Positions 28,279 through 39,136 of a stretch of DNA of 39,136 bases are shown in pieces. Numbering within the stretch: position 1 is the first letter of the stretch; every line of letters begins with the position of its first letter. The DNA is from Tissierellia bacterium (lineage in GTDB: Bacteria; Bacillota; Clostridia; Tissierellales; Tepidimicrobiaceae), in assembly GCA_012518955.1 (NCBI GenBank), contig JAAYRD010000012.1:1-39136 (forward strand), read 5' to 3'. A program made the translations under genes and the position numbers. The notes under the pieces were generated by a model, which was not told the origin of the DNA, ran no database searches, and saw only the letters and a program-made list of their open reading frames with translations.

Positions 28279-28580
28279 TAACTTTAACAACAATCAGCGG
28301 TAAAGACTTTGAAAAGAAGAGTAGGCATGCGAATACTCATACAGAGAGCTTCGTTTGGTGAGAGGAAGCAGAGGATAGCAAGCTGAACATGGTCTTGGAG
28401 TCTAGGTGTCGAAGCAATCTTTAGACATCTACGTGTGCACACGTTATAGTGCTAGAGTATTGATGGATATTAATCCTGCGTACTTGATGAGGTACCAATC
28501 GTGAGATAGGTATAAACTTAGGGTGGTAACACGAAGCTTTCGTCCCTTTGCATATTTGCAAAAGGATGAAAGCTTTTTTT
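28279..28580 (+). ncRNA. T-box leader, methionine specifier
   Basis: A tRNA-sensing leader of about 300 bases. The T-box sequence AGGGTGGTAACACG is at 28520-28533. The terminator helix AAGCTTTCGTCC (28534-28545) with GGATGAAAGCTT (28564-28575) and a T run follows. Stem I closes with AGACT (28304-28308) and AGTCT (28399-28403). AGTA (28320-28323) and GAAC (28385-28388) form the usual internal loop, directly followed by the specifier ATG (28389-28391). Uncharged tRNA-Met would favour antitermination and turn on the downstream metNIQ when methionine is short. A further hairpin ACGTG-TGCA-CACGT (near 28434) fits a distal stem. Confidence 0.93.
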
Positions 28581-28629
28581 ATTTTATTTTTTTGATGACT
28601 GAGTGTACTTTAATAAGGAGGTATTGGGT

Positions 28630-29697
28630 TTGATTGAGATTATAGGTGTAACAAAGGTATTTGACAATGGGAAAAATAAGGTTAAGGCAATTCAAGATGT
28701 AAGCTTAAATATTAATAAGGGAGAAATCTATGGGATAATAGGGTATTCTGGAGCAGGAAAATCCACTTTAATTAGATGTATCAATCTTCTGGAAAGACCA
28801 ACTACAGGAAAGATCGTATTTAAGGGGGAAGATTTAACTGCTTTAAGGGAGAAGGATTTAAGATCTCGAAGAAAGAAGATAGGTATGATTTTTCAACATT
28901 TCAACTTATTTAATTCGAGAAATGTATATAAAAATGTGGCCTATCCTTTAAGGGGATCAAAGCTTTCTAAGGAAGAAGAGAAAAAAAGAGTATTAGAATT
29001 ATTGGAATTGGTGGGACTTAAAGATAAGGTAATGGCTTATCCATCTGAATTAAGTGGAGGTCAAAAGCAAAGGGTTGCGATAGCTAGAGCCTTGGCCAAC
29101 AATCCTGAAGTATTACTATGTGATGAAGCCACCTCAGCATTGGATCCAAAGACTACAAATTCCATATTGGAATTATTAAGGGAATTAAAAAACAAGCTAA
29201 ACCTTACAATAGTTTTAATTACCCATGAGATGTCAGTAATAAAACAGATATGTGATAGGGTAAGCGTAATGGAAGGGGGTCAGATTATAGAAGAAGGTAC
29301 AGTAGCTCAGATATTTAGTCAACCTATCCATGAAACTACTAAGGAGTTTATAGATACTACAACCAATAGGGGAAAGATCTATGAGATTTTGAATAAAGAA
29401 GAGAACATTTTTAATATAAAAGAAGAAGATGTATTGGCTAGAGTTGCATATATAGGTGAATCTACCACGGAAGCATTATTATCAAAGGGTTCTAGAAAAT
29501 ATAGAATAGATGCAAGCATTCTATATGGCAATATAGAAATTCTAGGAGAAACCCCTATAGGGGAGATGATTATTCTTTTTAGTGGAGAAAGGGAAAATAT
29601 ACAAAGTTTCATCAATTACTTTAGAGAAAAAGGATTAATAGTGGAGGTGATAGATCATGAAGGAAGTAATTCTAAAGTATATACCAAATGTTCTTGA
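28630..29697 (+). CDS. metN: methionine ABC transporter ATPase MetN (copy 2)
   Basis: A subunit of about 355 residues. Walker A is GYSGAGKSTLIR, the signature ELSGGQKQRVAIARAL, Walker B VLLCDEATSALDP and the H-loop ITHEM. A C-terminal NIL domain gives methionine feedback inhibition. TTG 28630 is chosen because AAGGAGG (28615-28621) is spaced for it; in-frame GTG 28603 and TTG 28624 fit worse. Control by the Met-specific T-box upstream makes methionine the substrate with good confidence. Its end overlaps metI by 41 bases. Confidence 0.93.
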   Translation: MIEIIGVTKVFDNGKNKVKAIQDVSLNINKGEIYGIIGYSGAGKSTLIRCINLLERPTTGKIVFKGEDLTALREKDLRSRRKKIGMIFQHFNLFNSRNVYKNVAYPLRGSKLSKEEEKKRVLELLELVGLKDKVMAYPSELSGGQKQRVAIARALANNPEVLLCDEATSALDPKTTNSILELLRELKNKLNLTIVLITHEMSVIKQICDRVSVMEGGQIIEEGTVAQIFSQPIHETTKEFIDTTTNRGKIYEILNKEENIFNIKEEDVLARVAYIGESTTEALLSKGSRKYRIDASILYGNIEILGETPIGEMIILFSGERENIQSFINYFREKGLIVEVIDHEGSNSKVYTKCS

Positions 29698-30337
29698 TAA
29701 TAGGATTGAATTGATGCAAAGTATAGGGGAAACTATTGCTATGGTGTCCATATCGGGTATCATATCCCTAGTTTTAGGTATTATAATAGGTGTTTTTCTA
29801 GTGGTAACTAAGGAGGGGAATATTTTAGAAAACAATATATTCAATAATATTATGGGAAAAATAATTAATTTTTTCAGAAGCATTCCCTTCATAATACTTA
29901 TAGGAGCACTAATTCCCTTAACGAGATTGATAGTAGGATCTGCCATAGGAACGAAAGGTGCTATAGTTCCTTTAGTATTTGGAACAGTACCGTTCTTTTC
30001 TAGACAAATAGAAACTGCATTAATGGAAGTGGATAAGGGGGTAATAGAAGCGGCTCAGGCCATGGGTTCAAGTCCTTTGGATATAATATTTAGGGTTTAT
30101 TTAAGAGAAGGATTACCGGGAATAATAAGGGGAATTACCATAACTCTTATAAGTTTAATAGGACTTTCAGCTATGGCGGGAGCAATTGGAGGAGGTGGAT
30201 TAGGAGATTTTGCCATAAGATATGGATATCAAAGATTCCAAATAGACATTACCTATGTAACTATAATCATAATTTTAATATTTGTGTCCATTATTCAAGG
30301 ATTAGGAAATTTAGTTTTAAAGAAAATAGAACGTTAA
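29657..30337 (+). CDS. metI: methionine ABC transporter permease MetI (copy 2)
   Basis: A 226-residue permease with five or six TM segments. The EAA loop is EAAQAMGSSPLDIIFRVYL and the C-terminal motif is AGAIGGGGLGDFAIRYGYQ, both standard for MetI. It starts inside the metN 3' end behind GTGGAGGTGAT, an overlap that suggests coupled translation. Confidence 0.94.
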   Translation: MKEVILKYIPNVLDNRIELMQSIGETIAMVSISGIISLVLGIIIGVFLVVTKEGNILENNIFNNIMGKIINFFRSIPFIILIGALIPLTRLIVGSAIGTKGAIVPLVFGTVPFFSRQIETALMEVDKGVIEAAQAMGSSPLDIIFRVYLREGLPGIIRGITITLISLIGLSAMAGAIGGGGLGDFAIRYGYQRFQIDITYVTIIIILIFVSIIQGLGNLVLKKIER

Positions 30338-30353
30338 GAAGGGGAGATGATTT

Positions 30354-31175
30354 ATGAAAAAAATAAGATTGGGAATTATAGTATTAGTGTTAGTATTATT
30401 AGCCGGAGCTCTTTCAGCTTGTAGTAAGCCAGCTTCAACGGATGAAGACGAAAGAATAATAAAATTAGGAATAACAGGTCCAGAAACAGAAGAATGGACT
30501 TATCTGAAAGAACAATTAGCCGAAGAAGGAATTACACTGGAGCTTGTAAGTTTTTCAGATTATACAAGACCTAATTTAGCCTTAAGTGAAGGGGAGATAG
30601 ATATAAATGCCTTCCAACACTATGCATTCTTTGATCAATTTAAAGAAGAGCATAATCTAGATTTAACTGCTATTGGAGAAACCATTATAGCACCACTTGG
30701 TTTATATTCTACAAAAGTTAAAGATGTAAAAGATCTGGTAGAAGGAGATAAGATAGCCATACCAAATGATGGCACCAATGGTGGAAGGTCTCTTATTCTA
30801 ATACAAACTGCAGGTCTAATAAAAATAGATCCAGATGTAGAAGGCCTACCAACCCTTAGTGATATTGTAGAAAATCCATTAGATCTTGAAATTATAGAAG
30901 TAGAAGCAGCCACAACACCTAGGATGTTAGATGATGTGGAGCTATCTGTAATAAATAGCACCATCGCAGTAGATGCAGGATTTATTCCAATAGAAGATGC
31001 CGTGTTTTTAGAGCCGGTAAATGAAGATACGAAACCATATATTAATATATTTGCAGCAAGAACGGAAGACAAGGATGATCCTGATTTGAAAAAACTAATA
31101 GAAAATTATCAAACAGATGAGGTTAAGGAAATAATAGATAGGGTATATAAAGGTTCACAAATTCCAAATTGGTAA
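30354..31175 (+). CDS. metQ: methionine-binding lipoprotein MetQ (copy 2)
   Basis: A 273-residue NlpA-family lipoprotein with lipobox LSAC (lipid-modified Cys23). Mature motifs IKLGITGPETEEWTYLKEQL, EGEIDINAFQHYAFFD and AIPNDGTNGGRSLILIQ are typical of MetQ methionine-binding proteins. AAGGGGAGATGAT precedes the ATG. It ends 47 bases before phosphomevalonate kinase with no terminator seen between, so the T-box transcript may run on into that gene. Confidence 0.94.
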   Translation: MKKIRLGIIVLVLVLLAGALSACSKPASTDEDERIIKLGITGPETEEWTYLKEQLAEEGITLELVSFSDYTRPNLALSEGEIDINAFQHYAFFDQFKEEHNLDLTAIGETIIAPLGLYSTKVKDVKDLVEGDKIAIPNDGTNGGRSLILIQTAGLIKIDPDVEGLPTLSDIVENPLDLEIIEVEAATTPRMLDDVELSVINSTIAVDAGFIPIEDAVFLEPVNEDTKPYINIFAARTEDKDDPDLKKLIENYQTDEVKEIIDRVYKGSQIPNW

Positions 31176-33586: not shown

Positions 33587-33644
33587 ATATTCCATGATAG
33601 ATAGCATATTTAGATGTCTTAATAATAAAGGAAAAGGGAAGAAA

Positions 33645-34346
33645 ATGAGAAGAATAATTATATTAATAAATATAATAATACTGATTATTTCTTTAGTATT
33701 TATAATTGATTATCTAATAAATAGTAACAATGCTAAGAGCGTATACCAGGAAATATCTCAATTATACTATAGAAATAAAGAGAGTAGAGGCCATGGGAAA
33801 AATATAGAAGAACTAAAGTCAATCAACAATGATATAGTAGCATGGATATATATACCTGGTACAAATATTAATTATCCAATAGTGCAAACAAGGGACAATA
33901 TTTATTATTTAGATCATGATATACATGGAAATAGTTCAAAACATGGCTCTATATTTATGGACTATAGAAATAATGTTTCAGAAGATGAAAATATAATAAT
34001 ATATGGTCATCATATGAGGGATGGGAGCATGTTTGGAGGACTTAAAAAGTATAAGAGTGAGGCTTGTTATAGGGACAATAAATATATCTATTTGGATACA
34101 GATAAGGGAAGATTTAAATATAGGGTTTTTTCTGTTTATATTACGGAAGGCAATACAGACTATTTAAAAACTAGTTTTAATTCTACTGATGAATTTTTAT
34201 TATATCTAGAAGATGTTAGCAATAAATCCTTATTTAAGGATAATAATAAATTTAATGGACAAGAGAAATTAATTACCTTGTCCACTTGTAGTTATGAATA
34301 TAAGGATGCAAGAATGGTGGTACATGGATATTTAGTCTTGCATTAG
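33645..34346 (+). CDS. srtB: class B sortase
   Basis: A membrane-anchored transpeptidase of about 233 residues that links surface proteins to peptidoglycan. An N-terminal TM helix (MRRIIILINIIILIISLVF) is followed by a sortase domain. The catalytic triad is visible: His122 in IIIYGHHMRDG, Cys215 in LSTCSYE and Arg223 in DARMVVHG, with the class B features VAWIYIPGTNINYPIVQ and DHDIHGN. The start at 33645 has AAGGGAAG upstream; ATG 33594 coincides with the predicted transcript start. The gene at the right edge of this window encodes an NPKTG-type sorting signal, a typical class B substrate. The 3' end overlaps the convergent ECF S gene by 15 bases. Confidence 0.93.
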   Translation: MRRIIILINIIILIISLVFIIDYLINSNNAKSVYQEISQLYYRNKESRGHGKNIEELKSINNDIVAWIYIPGTNINYPIVQTRDNIYYLDHDIHGNSSKHGSIFMDYRNNVSEDENIIIYGHHMRDGSMFGGLKKYKSEACYRDNKYIYLDTDKGRFKYRVFSVYITEGNTDYLKTSFNSTDEFLLYLEDVSNKSLFKDNNKFNGQEKLITLSTCSYEYKDARMVVHGYLVLH

Positions 34347-35051
34347 CCCATATTTTAATTTTATACGTTCTAATTTTTCGCCAATTGGTTTTGATAATAG
34401 CAGTAAAAATACTACATTTGAAACACAATATACTATGGTAAAAGGAATTGCACCTATAATAGCTATATAATATCGTTTCCAAGTAAAGAGTCCATCTATG
34501 GACAATACAAACCATATATCCATCATAAGAGAAAATAATATACCAGAAAAGATTCCATATAATGTGAGGACAACTTTGTTTTCCATTAAGTTAAATTTTG
34601 CCAGTACTCCCGCTATAAAGCCTAAAATTCCCCAGGATAGCATTTGGAAGGGGGTCCAGGGACCTTGTCCATAGTAGATATTGGACACTATAGCGGATAA
34701 AGCCCCCGTAAGAAAACCTGCTTCGGGTCCAAAAGCAATTCCGGTAATTGCTGTAATTGCTGTAACAGGTTTAAAACCTGGCAACATAACAAATATAAGT
34801 CGACCGGCTACCGATAGGGCAGACATTACCGATATACAAAGAATCTCTCTAGGCTGTGGCCTTCTATTTTCAAATCTGGCTAAAAAAGGAATGCAAGCTA
34901 AAAATGCAATTATAAAGGATATTAGATTATACTTTCTATCGTTTAAAAGCTTAACACCGACTAGAATGACTATAGGTATAATCAATAGGACGGTAGTTAT
35001 ACTTATGGTTATATTTTTCATACTAGTTCGTATCTTTAACTTTGTTGACAT
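34332..35051 (-). CDS. ECF transporter S component
   Basis: A 239-residue substrate-binding membrane subunit. It has about six TM segments with the ECF-S type region ISVMSALSVAGRLIFVMLPG and ITGIAFGPEAGFLTGALSAI, and GQGPWTPFQMLSWGILGFIAG, each given here in part. The type resembles S components annotated for cobalamin or other vitamins (PF12822-like), but the substrate cannot be read from the sequence. It overlaps the ATPase gene by 16 bases in a T-A-S operon and follows the DUF4430 lipoprotein. Confidence 0.87.
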   Translation of the reverse strand: MSTKLKIRTSMKNITISITTVLLIIPIVILVGVKLLNDRKYNLISFIIAFLACIPFLARFENRRPQPREILCISVMSALSVAGRLIFVMLPGFKPVTAITAITGIAFGPEAGFLTGALSAIVSNIYYGQGPWTPFQMLSWGILGFIAGVLAKFNLMENKVVLTLYGIFSGILFSLMMDIWFVLSIDGLFTWKRYYIAIIGAIPFTIVYCVSNVVFLLLLSKPIGEKLERIKLKYGLMQD

Positions 35052-36697
35052 AAATGGATCACATCCTTACTTGTAATTGCATTTTTAAAAATATGTCTAG
35101 ACATTCTATTGGCGGCTGTAGTATAGAAGCTATTGCCACTGAAAAAGCTAATTGGATCATCTTCTGATACAATATTACCATCAAAAAACAATGCACATCT
35201 ATCAGAGTATTCTGCAGAAAATTCAATATCATGGCTTACCATAATAATGGTAACATGAGATTTTTTAAGCTCTTTCATAATCTCTCCTAATACCTTTTTA
35301 GAGTACCCATCTAATCCTTTGGTTGGTTCGTCAAATAAAATAATTTTAGGATTCAGTAATAGTATTTTTGCTAAGGCAACTTTTTGCTGTTCTCCGCCAC
35401 TTAAATCATAGGGATGTTTTTGAAAAAGATGTTTAATATACAATCTTTCAGCTATATTGTTGATTTTTTTATTTGCGGCATCATTATTTAATTTCATTAC
35501 TTTTATTATTTCATCAAATTCCTTTTCAACTTTATTTTTTACAAATAAGGTTTGTGGATTCTGTGGTAATACGGCTATATTATTGTGATAAAGTTCTTTC
35601 TTTTTGTAATCTGAAATCTTTTTTCCATGGAGCAGCACCTTTCCTCTATAAGGAGAACTAATACCTGAGATTACATTTAAAGTAGTGGTTTTTCCGGAGC
35701 CATTACCACCTAAGATGCTAAAGATCTCTCCTTTATAAGCTTGTAGAGAGACTCCTCTTAAAACGTCTGGCAATTCTCTTCCATATCTAAACCAGACATC
35801 CTTCAGTTCCAAAACTATGTTTGAGTTATCTGGTTTTTTATAGGAATTTATTTTATTTATATTGCTTTTAAAATTGTTACTTAGCCAAATACTGCCTTCT
35901 CTAATGGTTAAAGGACATTTATCTTTTGTATTGCACTCATTATATATTCTAATAGGTGTGGGGAAACCATAGATGATATTATGGTTTTTCGCACTTCTAA
36001 GGCTTTCTCCAACCTTTTCAGGAGTATCATATATCAACTTTCTACCTTTATCTAAGACTAGTACTTTATCAGCTATTGGATATACTTCCTCCAACCTATG
36101 TTCGACTAAGATAATGGTAAGGGCTAGCTCTTTATTGATTTTATACAATGTATTTATAAAGTCGGTTGCAGCTATAGGATCTAGTTGGGAAGTGGGCTCA
36201 TCAAGAATTAAAACCTTGGGGTTCATAACCATGATAGAGGCAAGGTTTAACAGCTGTTTTTGTCCCCCGGATAAATCTTGCACATCCTTTCTGAACCATC
36301 CTTCGATGCCAAAGAAACTGGCCATTTCTGCAACCCTACGCCTAATGACAGGAGTTTTTATAGCTAGATTTTCTAATCCAAAGGCTAATTCGTGCCATAC
36401 CTTATCTGTTACGATTTGGTTATCTGGATTTTGCATTACATATCCTATTTCAGACGCATTTTTCTTATCATCTAAAGCCTTTAAGGGGATATTGTTATAA
36501 TATATTTCTCCATGTCTTGCACCATAAGGAGCGATTTGGGGCTTTAACTGCCTAATTAGAGTGCTTTTACCACAACCAGTTTCTCCACATATTAGTATAA
36601 ATTCTCCTTTTTCTATGGAAAGGGAAATATTATCTATTGCCTTAGATTCTTGAGCAGGATATGAGAAACTTAAATTTTTGATATCAATGATCGCCAT
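35036..36697 (-). CDS. ECF transporter fused double ATPase (A1-A2)
   Basis: A 553-residue protein with two ABC ATPase domains. Domain 1 has Walker A CGETGCGKSTLIRQL, signature DLSGGQKQLLNLASIM and Walker B VLILDEPTSQLDP. Domain 2 has Walker A GGNGSGKTTTLNVI, signature DLSGGEQQKVALAKIL and Walker B IILFDEPTKGLDG. A fused A subunit is common in dedicated (group I-like) ECF systems and replaces separate EcfA and EcfA'. The start has AAGGAGGATT upstream and lies inside the T-component 3' end. Confidence 0.94.
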   Translation of the reverse strand: MAIIDIKNLSFSYPAQESKAIDNISLSIEKGEFILICGETGCGKSTLIRQLKPQIAPYGARHGEIYYNNIPLKALDDKKNASEIGYVMQNPDNQIVTDKVWHELAFGLENLAIKTPVIRRRVAEMASFFGIEGWFRKDVQDLSGGQKQLLNLASIMVMNPKVLILDEPTSQLDPIAATDFINTLYKINKELALTIILVEHRLEEVYPIADKVLVLDKGRKLIYDTPEKVGESLRSAKNHNIIYGFPTPIRIYNECNTKDKCPLTIREGSIWLSNNFKSNINKINSYKKPDNSNIVLELKDVWFRYGRELPDVLRGVSLQAYKGEIFSILGGNGSGKTTTLNVISGISSPYRGKVLLHGKKISDYKKKELYHNNIAVLPQNPQTLFVKNKVEKEFDEIIKVMKLNNDAANKKINNIAERLYIKHLFQKHPYDLSGGEQQKVALAKILLLNPKIILFDEPTKGLDGYSKKVLGEIMKELKKSHVTIIMVSHDIEFSAEYSDRCALFFDGNIVSEDDPISFFSGNSFYTTAANRMSRHIFKNAITSKDVIHLCQQS

Positions 36698-37563
36698 TTT
36701 AAATCCTCCTTGATTTCGATTATTGTAGGAAATATCAATAATAAAAAGTAAGATAAATTAAAGGTAATGGTCATGACTGAAAAATCCATATTCTTGACAT
36801 AGGGATAATAGTAAAAAGAACTATATCCATAGACTTCTCCAAGTATATTGATTGAAACCAAAAGGAGGATTATTCCTAATATAATACCGTCCCTTTTATC
36901 GAATTTAAAAATGGAAAATGTGGTCCTACCCTTTAATCCATAGCCTCTAGCCTTCATTGAATCGGCGGTATCAATACCATTTTCTAAAGCCCAAGTTATT
37001 AGAATTGATAGTATTCTAATTCCACTTCTAATCCTCTCTAATATGCTCCCAGTATCTATATACATTCCCAATGTTCTTTGAGAATTAGATATTTGCTTGA
37101 TTTGATCTTTTAATTTAGGGATTAATCTTAAGGTAATAGAAATGATTAGAGCTAAGGTAGGTATAATATTTCCAAATAAACATATAAACTTATCCGAAGT
37201 CATAACCAAATTGTAGCATCTAAACCACAGCATGATAGACACTATCATAGTTGCCATAGCTATGCCATATAGAATGGATTCCAATGTTATAGGATTATAA
37301 TTTATATAGAACAAAGGTGTAACCCCTTTATGACTAAAAATGGGATTGCTGATTGCAATCAATATGAATATTGGTAATATATATAGCAGTGTTTTAAAAA
37401 GCTTTCTTAACCCTACTAATTTACCTAATAGTAGGGTAGAAGAAATGAGGGATATAGCTAAATAAACCGGATGCATGAAAAACATTGTAAAGAGAATACA
37501 GGATGCGAAGAAAACGAATAAAACAATTGGGTGATAGGATTCAAGTGCACTAATTCTAATCAT
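36670..37563 (-). CDS. ECF transporter transmembrane T component
   Basis: A 297-residue membrane protein with four to six TM segments. The coupling-helix Ala-Arg-Gly motif appears in SMKARGYGLKGRTTF; it contacts the ATPase. The start overlaps the lipoprotein stop by 4 bases (ATGA), and the end overlaps the ATPase gene by 28 bases, so the operon is translationally coupled. Confidence 0.92.
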   Translation of the reverse strand: MIRISALESYHPIVLFVFFASCILFTMFFMHPVYLAISLISSTLLLGKLVGLRKLFKTLLYILPIFILIAISNPIFSHKGVTPLFYINYNPITLESILYGIAMATMIVSIMLWFRCYNLVMTSDKFICLFGNIIPTLALIISITLRLIPKLKDQIKQISNSQRTLGMYIDTGSILERIRSGIRILSILITWALENGIDTADSMKARGYGLKGRTTFSIFKFDKRDGIILGIILLLVSINILGEVYGYSSFYYYPYVKNMDFSVMTITFNLSYFLLLIFPTIIEIKEDLKWRSLISKI

Positions 37564-38414
37564 TTAATCCAATTAACCCCCAAGTCTCTTCCCAAATCGC
37601 AAGTATAGCGCCATTCAATATTTTCCCCACCTTTTAATATATATTTATCACATCCTATATTTGGATAGTTTCCGTTTACATTATACATCCAGCCACTAAG
37701 CTCTCCACAACTAAACTCATAAACATTATTTATACCTTGGACATAGACACTGGCATATTTATTTTGATTAGCCCCTTGATATTCCATATGAATTCGATAT
37801 TTTCTTGTAGCTTTTACTAAAATATCAAAAACGCTTTGGTTATCCTCCAATTCAAATTTAGTTTTCTGTAAGATTACTCCATTAGATGGTACGAATCGCT
37901 CATTGTTTAAATTGGGGTCCAATTTATCTCTATTATTGAGGATGGTATCGCATCTAATTGTTAATGTAACATATTTTTTATTGTTACTATTATTTGCAGG
38001 TGTTTCTTTAGGTTTACTACTGGTATTATTAGTTTCTTTAGCATTGGTTTTAGTAGTACTTGATTTCTGATTGATGGAATTGTTGCTATCACTGCTATTT
38101 TTATTGGATTTAGTGGTAGATGTTTTAGTTGAGCCAGAGCTTTTGTATTCTATATCTCTATTATTTTCTGATATATCTGTTGTATTTTTTTCTATTTCTT
38201 GTTTTGACTCTGTTTTTTGTATATCTCCAGATTCTTTTTTTTCATTCTTTTTACCAACATCTACATCGTCATTAATATTATTCTTTAGATCATTTTCAAT
38301 ACTATCTTTTTCGGATATCTTATGATGTTCGTCAATGGACTGAATCTTGCAACCAGTTATAATTGACAATAGGATTATGGTAATAAGACCTATACTTATT
38401 ATTTTTTTTCTCAA
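37560..38414 (-). CDS. DUF4430 lipoprotein
   Basis: A 284-residue lipoprotein. The signal peptide ends in the lipobox ITGC (Cys22). Residues 30-150 are a low-complexity Ser/Thr/Asn/Lys spacer that could cross the cell wall. The C-terminal domain (about 150-284) matches the DUF4430 pattern: FELEDNQSVFDILVKATRK, YVQGINNVYEFSCGELSGWM and GGENIEWRYTCDLGRDLG. DUF4430 is related to the C-terminal domain of transcobalamin/intrinsic factor. It lies directly before an ECF T-A-S set, so it is likely a substrate-capture or docking protein for that transporter; a corrinoid ligand is an inference. Confidence 0.88.
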   Translation of the reverse strand: MRKKIISIGLITIILLSIITGCKIQSIDEHHKISEKDSIENDLKNNINDDVDVGKKNEKKESGDIQKTESKQEIEKNTTDISENNRDIEYKSSGSTKTSTTKSNKNSSDSNNSINQKSSTTKTNAKETNNTSSKPKETPANNSNNKKYVTLTIRCDTILNNRDKLDPNLNNERFVPSNGVILQKTKFELEDNQSVFDILVKATRKYRIHMEYQGANQNKYASVYVQGINNVYEFSCGELSGWMYNVNGNYPNIGCDKYILKGGENIEWRYTCDLGRDLGVNWIK

Positions 38415-38434
38415 AACTATCCCTCCTGTTTATA

Positions 38435-38458
38435 GGGTCAAGGGATAGCCCTTGACCC
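38435..38458. terminator. intercistronic hairpin
   Basis: GGGTCAAGGG (38435-38444) pairs perfectly with CCCTTGACCC (38449-38458) over a 4-base loop. It sits between the anchored-protein gene and the DUF4430 gene and has no T run, so it may stabilise or process the mRNA, or lower downstream expression, rather than end it. Confidence 0.65.
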
Positions 38459-38470
38459 ATAGCACTATAA

Positions 38471-39136
38471 TTATTTATCCTTAGATGGCTTTTTAATCAC
38501 ACCCATAATGGTTAGTGTGGACACCGACAATATAAATAGAAATAGGATAATAAGTATTTGATGATCTCCAGTTTTAGGGTTTTTATCTGTATCTACAACT
38601 TGTCCAATTTTTGAATCTATATTTTTCGTTGCATCTTTCTTAATATCTTTATTTATACTTGTACCTATATCTTTACTTGTATTTTTATCTTTATAATCTT
38701 GAGATATATCGGTTTTATTTTCTTTTTCTAATTTTTCAATCATTTTCATAGCATTTAAGACTTCATCATAAAATTCTATGTGTTTTTTATCTTCATCACT
38801 GAGGGCATCATATCTTGCCATTATATTTAATATAGCAGGTTTATGCTTTAAGGTTATTTCACTTACATCTCCAGGTAAGTTCCAGATGGCTTCATTTATT
38901 TCTTTGATTTCTCTTTCTATATCTTCTATTTTTTCTTTTAATTTCATTAAAATGTCCTTGTTTTCTACTTTCTCTTTATATTTATCCGGTAATTGCATGA
39001 ACATATTATATACCTTCATAATTTCATTTTTATCGTTTAAGCTTATATTTTCTATAATTGGTAGCTGGGAAATTAGTTCATTTAATTTATCTACTTGCTC
39101 CTCGCCAACTGAAGGCAGATAGATTTCTTCTTCCAT
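38471..39136 (-). CDS. cell-wall-anchored surface protein with NPKTG sorting signal (partial)
   Basis: At least 221 residues; the frame runs off the window edge, so the N-terminus is missing (the Met at the edge may be internal). Two helical repeats of about 60 residues are visible: one around SQLPIIENISLNDKNEIMKV and YNMFMQLPDKYKEKVENKD, the other around WNLPGDVSEITLKHKPAIL and MARYDALSDEDKKHIEFYD. These resemble repeats common in Firmicute surface proteins. A Lys/Asp/Thr-rich spacer leads to the C-terminal sorting signal DKNPKTGDHQ, a hydrophobic helix and the basic tail KKPSKDK. NPKTG fits class B sortases such as the one at 33.6 kb. It is the first visible gene of the ECF operon. Confidence 0.85.
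   Translation of the reverse strand: MEEEIYLPSVGEEQVDKLNELISQLPIIENISLNDKNEIMKVYNMFMQLPDKYKEKVENKDILMKLKEKIEDIEREIKEINEAIWNLPGDVSEITLKHKPAILNIMARYDALSDEDKKHIEFYDEVLNAMKMIEKLEKENKTDISQDYKDKNTSKDIGTSINKDIKKDATKNIDSKIGQVVDTDKNPKTGDHQILIILFLFILSVSTLTIMGVIKKPSKDK

Follow-up and report, generated by a model that had tools for sequence, protein, structure and literature searches.

The last 5.5 kb of a 39,136-nucleotide contig from a Tissierellia bacterium probably encode a system for the capture and import of cobamides, of a split-transcobalamin type that feeds an importer related to CbrT. The contig (here termed the window) was analysed whole, to its end at position 39136, and belongs to a 1.9 Mb assembly of 200 contigs (genome G000, 97% complete). 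The genes in question form a minus-strand operon for a wall protein, a DUF4430 lipoprotein and the EcfT, fused EcfA-A' and EcfS components of an energy-coupling factor (ECF) transporter, with a convergent gene, srtB, for a class B sortase. All of these had been named in an earlier reading of the DNA letters (the sequence-only reading) and are present where that reading had placed them, the contig end leaving only the C-terminal part of the wall protein with its NPKTG motif. The same reading had suggested that the locus might serve the uptake of corrinoids, an idea which is well supported by a cobalamin riboswitch in relatives, by the co-occurrence of the genes, and by the matches of EcfS to CbrT and of DUF4430 to transcobalamin.

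The ECF transporter genes

EcfS (34332–35051, minus strand; PF07155/PF12822) carries an N-terminal extension of approximately 60 amino acids. A single-sequence phmmer search with this protein identified CbrT (6fnp_A; E=9.1e-10), and a profile built from its orthologs matched CbrT with E=1.3e-21 over the core, the only other PDB match being 4hzu_S (5e-4). CbrT is the characterised vitamin B12/cobinamide S component of Lactobacillus delbrueckii (PMC5997447). The remaining components are the fused EcfA-A' ATPases (35036–36697, minus strand), which contain two ATP-binding cassette (ABC) domains and score over the cut-offs of TIGR04520/TIGR04521, and EcfT of the CbiQ family (36670–37563, minus strand; PF02361, E=6.7e-10), which is conserved together with the cassette. 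The set thus shares with ECF-CbrT of L. delbrueckii (6FNP; PMC5997447) a homologous S component, an EcfT and two ATPase domains, and it may be expected to import cobalamin or cobinamide. It differs from that system in forming a dedicated T-A-S operon, in its fused ATPases and N-terminally extended S component, and in the company of two extracellular capture proteins, whereas CbrT of L. delbrueckii draws on the common ECF module. In two relatives (G028 and G030) the EcfS sequence is joined to EcfA-A' in one open reading frame (ORF), which supports the assignment of the S component to the T-A-S module; ABC-ABC-S fusions of this kind, of 886–898 amino acids, lie at L040 8693–11389 and L042 16228–18888.

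Transcobalamin-like domains on two chains

The DUF4430 lipoprotein (37560–38414, minus strand; PF14478, 64.9 bits) has a lipobox ending in Cys22 (IITGC), followed by a low-complexity tether of approximately 120 amino acids and a C-terminal domain resembling the beta domain of transcobalamin. As a DUF4430 profile retrieved nothing credible from the PDB sequences, the comparison was made at the level of predicted folds. Seventeen PDB matches were obtained at E<=0.001, comprising 15 chains of transcobalamin, intrinsic factor or haptocorrin and two chains of the bacterial structure 3u7z; the best were the beta domains of the three carriers, and Foldseek aligned the model to the transcobalamin beta domain (5no0/5np4) with a TM-score of 0.68 on the target. 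The domain core is mostly well predicted, unlike the tether and one loop region. The relation between DUF4430 and transcobalamin that the sequence-only reading had proposed is consistent with these matches.

The wall-protein gene (38471–39136, minus strand; C-terminal 221 amino acids) is truncated at its 5' end by the contig end, such that the window retains only a helical stalk and the sorting signal, i.e. the NPKTG motif (38568–38581), a transmembrane (TM) segment and a basic tail; the missing 5' end was searched for elsewhere in G000 and was not found. The fragment is 61% identical to residues 326–552 of a full-length ortholog (L034:933–2591) in a genus-mate, Tepidimicrobium sp. (L034 = L052), whose wall protein of 552 amino acids begins with an alpha/alpha toroid. 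The genus-mate has an identical gene order, including srtB and mnmA, and the shared genes are 59–90% identical. On the basis of the model obtained for the orthologous region (pTM, the predicted TM-score, of 0.88), the missing part of the wall protein is predicted to be a toroid like the transcobalamin alpha domain. The beta-like match of DUF4430 and the match of the toroid would therefore represent two parts of a transcobalamin-like protein, here distributed over two chains. Both domains share their folds with the mammalian carriers transcobalamin, intrinsic factor and haptocorrin (2BB5, 5NP4, 2PMV, 4KKI); in contrast to these single soluble carriers, the bacterial chains are tethered to wall and membrane, and their sequences are too diverged for a PDB match by sequence.

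The toroid profile also matches squalene-hopene cyclase (E=2.5e-18), and its top matches in both sequence and fold are squalene-hopene and drimenyl cyclases. It was thus considered whether the protein might act outside the cell as an adhesin or as an enzyme of the terpene-cyclase type, with vitamins concerning the ECF part only. However, the DXDD acid motif of class II terpene cyclases is absent, the aligned position reading D-x-T with no DD pair in 14/14 toroids, and the toroids are secreted proteins encoded beside DUF4430 in cobalamin-riboswitch operons, which renders this explanation improbable.

The arrangement of DUF4430/SLBB domain, alpha/alpha toroid and CbiO/CbiQ was described by Burroughs et al. 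in 2007 (PMC1796856), who predicted B12 scavenging for it and proposed a Gram-positive bacterial origin of the human B12 carriers. The locus shares with their transcobalamin-like SLBB clade the DUF4430/SLBB beta-grasp domain, an alpha/alpha toroid partner (present in the orthologs, its region in G000 lying outside the window), secretion or wall anchoring, and operons with CbiO/CbiQ. It departs from that clade in carrying the alpha and beta parts on separate chains and in the adjoining class B sortase. Riboswitches go unmentioned in that study, and CbrT was characterised later. No experimental paper on this scheme was found in the open literature, most subscription journals being outside the coverage; as far as found, the riboswitch statistics, the link to CbrT, the form with a dedicated SrtB, the swapping of anchors and a hairpin that follows the gene of the wall protein are new.

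Cobalamin riboswitches and occurrence of the cassette

The sequence-only reading had named a cobalamin riboswitch upstream of the first gene, beyond position 39136, and co-occurrence of the genes in other genomes as checks of its proposal. The window contains no cobalamin riboswitch because the 5' region of the operon is missing, the contig ending first, and the operon's own riboswitch was not found elsewhere in the G000 assembly. Among relatives, a cobalamin riboswitch lies upstream and on the same strand in 16/16 full DUF4430-T-A-S operons whose contigs reach far enough (G002, G060, Tissierella creatinophila, G031, G022, G030 twice, G009, G004, G033, G045, G015, G028, G057:C31, L055 and L056). 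The distance from riboswitch to first ORF ranges from 56 to 739 nt, some operons being many genes long before the cassette is reached, and in the genus-mate the riboswitch (651–828, 130 bits) lies 105 nt ahead of the NPKTG gene (start 933). Across the class, 19/29 strong DUF4430 loci have a same-strand cobalamin riboswitch no more than 12 kb upstream, in a sample that includes contig-end cases where the upstream region could not show one; for the same 29 loci a riboswitch was found downstream in two cases and on the opposite strand in none, the chance expectation being approximately 0.6% per locus. The operon of the window would thus be expected to possess a cobalamin riboswitch in its own genome. 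Co-occurrence was likewise found in relatives: the DUF4430 core is present in 60/148 sampled genomes of the class, throughout which the toroid, DUF4430 and EcfT/A genes are adjacent.

CbiD was not found in G000, while five B12-binding domains were, and the organism should therefore need imported cobamides. Extending this to a rule that cassette carriers are B12 non-producers was rejected, as most carriers outside G000, G002 and G004 have CbiD; in this respect the carriers differ from the description by Burroughs et al. (PMC1796856), according to which key enzymes of B12 synthesis are usually missing from such bacteria.

Further cobalamin-riboswitch loci were observed. In G000 itself, a second pair of DUF4430 and CbrT-like S genes (G000:C52:26176–28381, L048) lies downstream of the one cobalamin riboswitch detected in this genome and consists of a small DUF4430 protein and a 167-amino-acid S component without T/A genes nearby, accompanied by two ResA/TlpA-like thioredoxins. 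In L064 (G045) and L065 (G015), long B12-riboswitch operons open with a gene for a DUF4430 protein, followed, ahead of the ECF cassette, by genes for an ABC ATPase and for apparent FtsX/MacB-type permeases. G031:C12 (103704–130901) and L047 contain arrays of genes for large DUF4430/LPKTG surface proteins, several of which have a cobalamin riboswitch to themselves, though often a weak one. Additionally, a B12-riboswitch operon of G022 (L041 6961–10363) carries a NifH/nitrogenase-component-1 fusion and a second nitrogenase-like ORF between its DUF4430 and EcfS genes, which are possibly involved in tetrapyrrole reduction or modification.

Anchoring, proposed transfer and the hairpin

The srtB gene (33645–34346, plus strand) overlaps ecfS tail-to-tail by 15 nt; its ORF is open from position 33594, the likely start being 33645. 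The product is a class B sortase, as it matches TIGR03064 with 234.8 bits (cut-off 153.75) as well as Pfam Sortase, and its translation contains the active-site context TLSTC...R. Within the family (f1), SrtB is present in 2/2 genomes with the operon and in 0/18 others, while in the order it adjoins the cassette in five genomes (G000, G002, G060, G085, i.e. T. creatinophila, and G145); the wall protein ends in [NS]PKT[GE]D in 4/4 of the SrtB-adjacent genomes where its end is visible. A codon pattern for NPKT[GED] had one match in G000, namely the wall-protein gene of the window (a reversed control pattern had two), and the only other sortase of the genome sits next to an LPKTG protein, so that SrtB and the wall protein are likely a dedicated enzyme-substrate pair, with SrtB predicted to act on the NPKTG signal. 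Conversely, the idea that SrtB belongs to the system in general was rejected, since of the 30 best SrtB loci examined only five are next to the cassette. Elsewhere the toroid is attached by SLH domains (L040–L044), by lipid (L038, L039) or by a C-terminal TM helix (L036, L037, L054–L056), which suggests that the toroid device is the same throughout and its tethers exchangeable. In L037 (12165–16754), and also in L036, L055 and L056, the cassette is followed by genes for a MoxR ATPase, a further protein and a membrane protein with a transglutaminase core.

A class B sortase with an N-P-x-T-type sorting signal is the arrangement of the Isd heme relay, in which SrtB fixes a heme receptor to the wall, and the sequence-only reading had drawn this parallel. 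The analogy of layout stands, as a wall-anchored receptor, a class B sortase and a membrane importer are common to the locus and to Isd with LhaSTA of Staphylococcus lugdunensis, an ECF heme importer found in an isd locus. However, a heme-type homology was not borne out: the NEAT family is absent from the Pfam matches of the operon proteins and orthologous wall proteins scanned, EcfS matches CbrT, the riboswitch linked to the operons is that of cobalamin, and the DUF4430 model resembles B12 carriers in fold. A heme relay was therefore rejected as highly improbable, a corrinoid taking the place of heme.

In the cobamide system proposed here, SrtB would attach the stalked wall protein to peptidoglycan, its N-terminal toroid acting as counterpart of the transcobalamin alpha domain, while the membrane-tethered lipoprotein would present the beta-domain counterpart (DUF4430/SLBB) on its long flexible linker. 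Both chains, as judged from sequence and models, may bind the corrinoid and close round it in the manner of the separately expressed domains of human transcobalamin, which assemble only with cobalamin (PMC5599065). The ligand would then be handed from the toroid via DUF4430 to the CbrT-like EcfS and be driven into the cell by EcfA-A'/EcfT using ATP, with cobalamin switching the operon off through the riboswitch. Alternatively, toroid and DUF4430 could act independently, as a surface store or in scavenging from other carriers, with EcfS taking free cobamide. In line with this, capture proteins played no part when CbrT of L. delbrueckii was characterised as a transporter (PMC5997447), LhaSTA works without the Isd receptors and LhaS was proposed to take up free heme directly (PMC7299338), and in some relatives (L035, L053, L043 and L044) the toroid chain itself bears an extra DUF4430 domain, making a one-chain clamp possible. 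Nevertheless, the genes for the toroid, DUF4430 and the ECF components remain neighbours class-wide under one riboswitch, which favours joint action near the membrane, and we consider uptake without a relay to be the less likely explanation, albeit one of some weight.

Several observations weigh against the cobamide capture system as proposed. The toroid and the riboswitch of the window's own operon fall beyond the contig end; the closest PDB folds of the toroid model are terpene cyclases, transcobalamin (E~2e-4) being one among several toroid matches; and the model of the full lipoprotein is of low confidence (mean predicted local distance difference test score of 55), with only parts of the domain being good. 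Furthermore, CbiD is present in many of the genomes that carry the cassette, whose distribution is therefore not limited to non-producers, and most cassettes lack SrtB alongside, which makes the sortase optional.

Among the ORFs of the operon, which overlap their neighbours by a few bases, the exception is a 56-nt gap from the NPKTG gene to the lipoprotein gene, which holds a perfect 10 bp stem-loop (38435–38458, minus strand). This hairpin is unique within the G000 genome and folds modestly better than shuffled sequences (z = -1.9). It was ruled out as an intrinsic terminator because it has no U-tract; a reasonable guess is that it acts as a stabilising or processing element in favour of the wall protein. 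The genus-mate has a matching hairpin. Hairpins also occupy this position in L035, L053 and L047, though their sequences are unrelated, while the equivalent gene pairs of L036, L040, L042 and L054 either overlap or are separated by 3–13 nt.

Whether these features amount to a general Gram-positive relay is, in our estimation, an evenly balanced proposition: a wall-borne alpha half and a membrane-borne beta half would clamp the cobamide between wall and membrane and deliver it to an ECF importer of the CbrT type, the wall half having interchangeable anchors (dedicated SrtB, SLH, lipid/TM) and the hairpin perhaps setting stoichiometry in sortase-anchored versions. Surface capture of cobamides by Gram-positive bacteria is little characterised experimentally, unlike that by BtuB/BtuG/BtuH of Bacteroides. 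The locus type, which is common in the class, would represent the Gram-positive counterpart of the Bacteroides proteins as well as a naturally occurring two-chain form of the human B12 carriers, and binding, the assembly of the domains and transfer can all be clearly tested on it.

Elsewhere in the window (28300–31175), a T-box leader precedes genes for a methionine ABC transporter that resembles MetNIQ, and kinases like those of the mevalonate pathway are encoded on either side.

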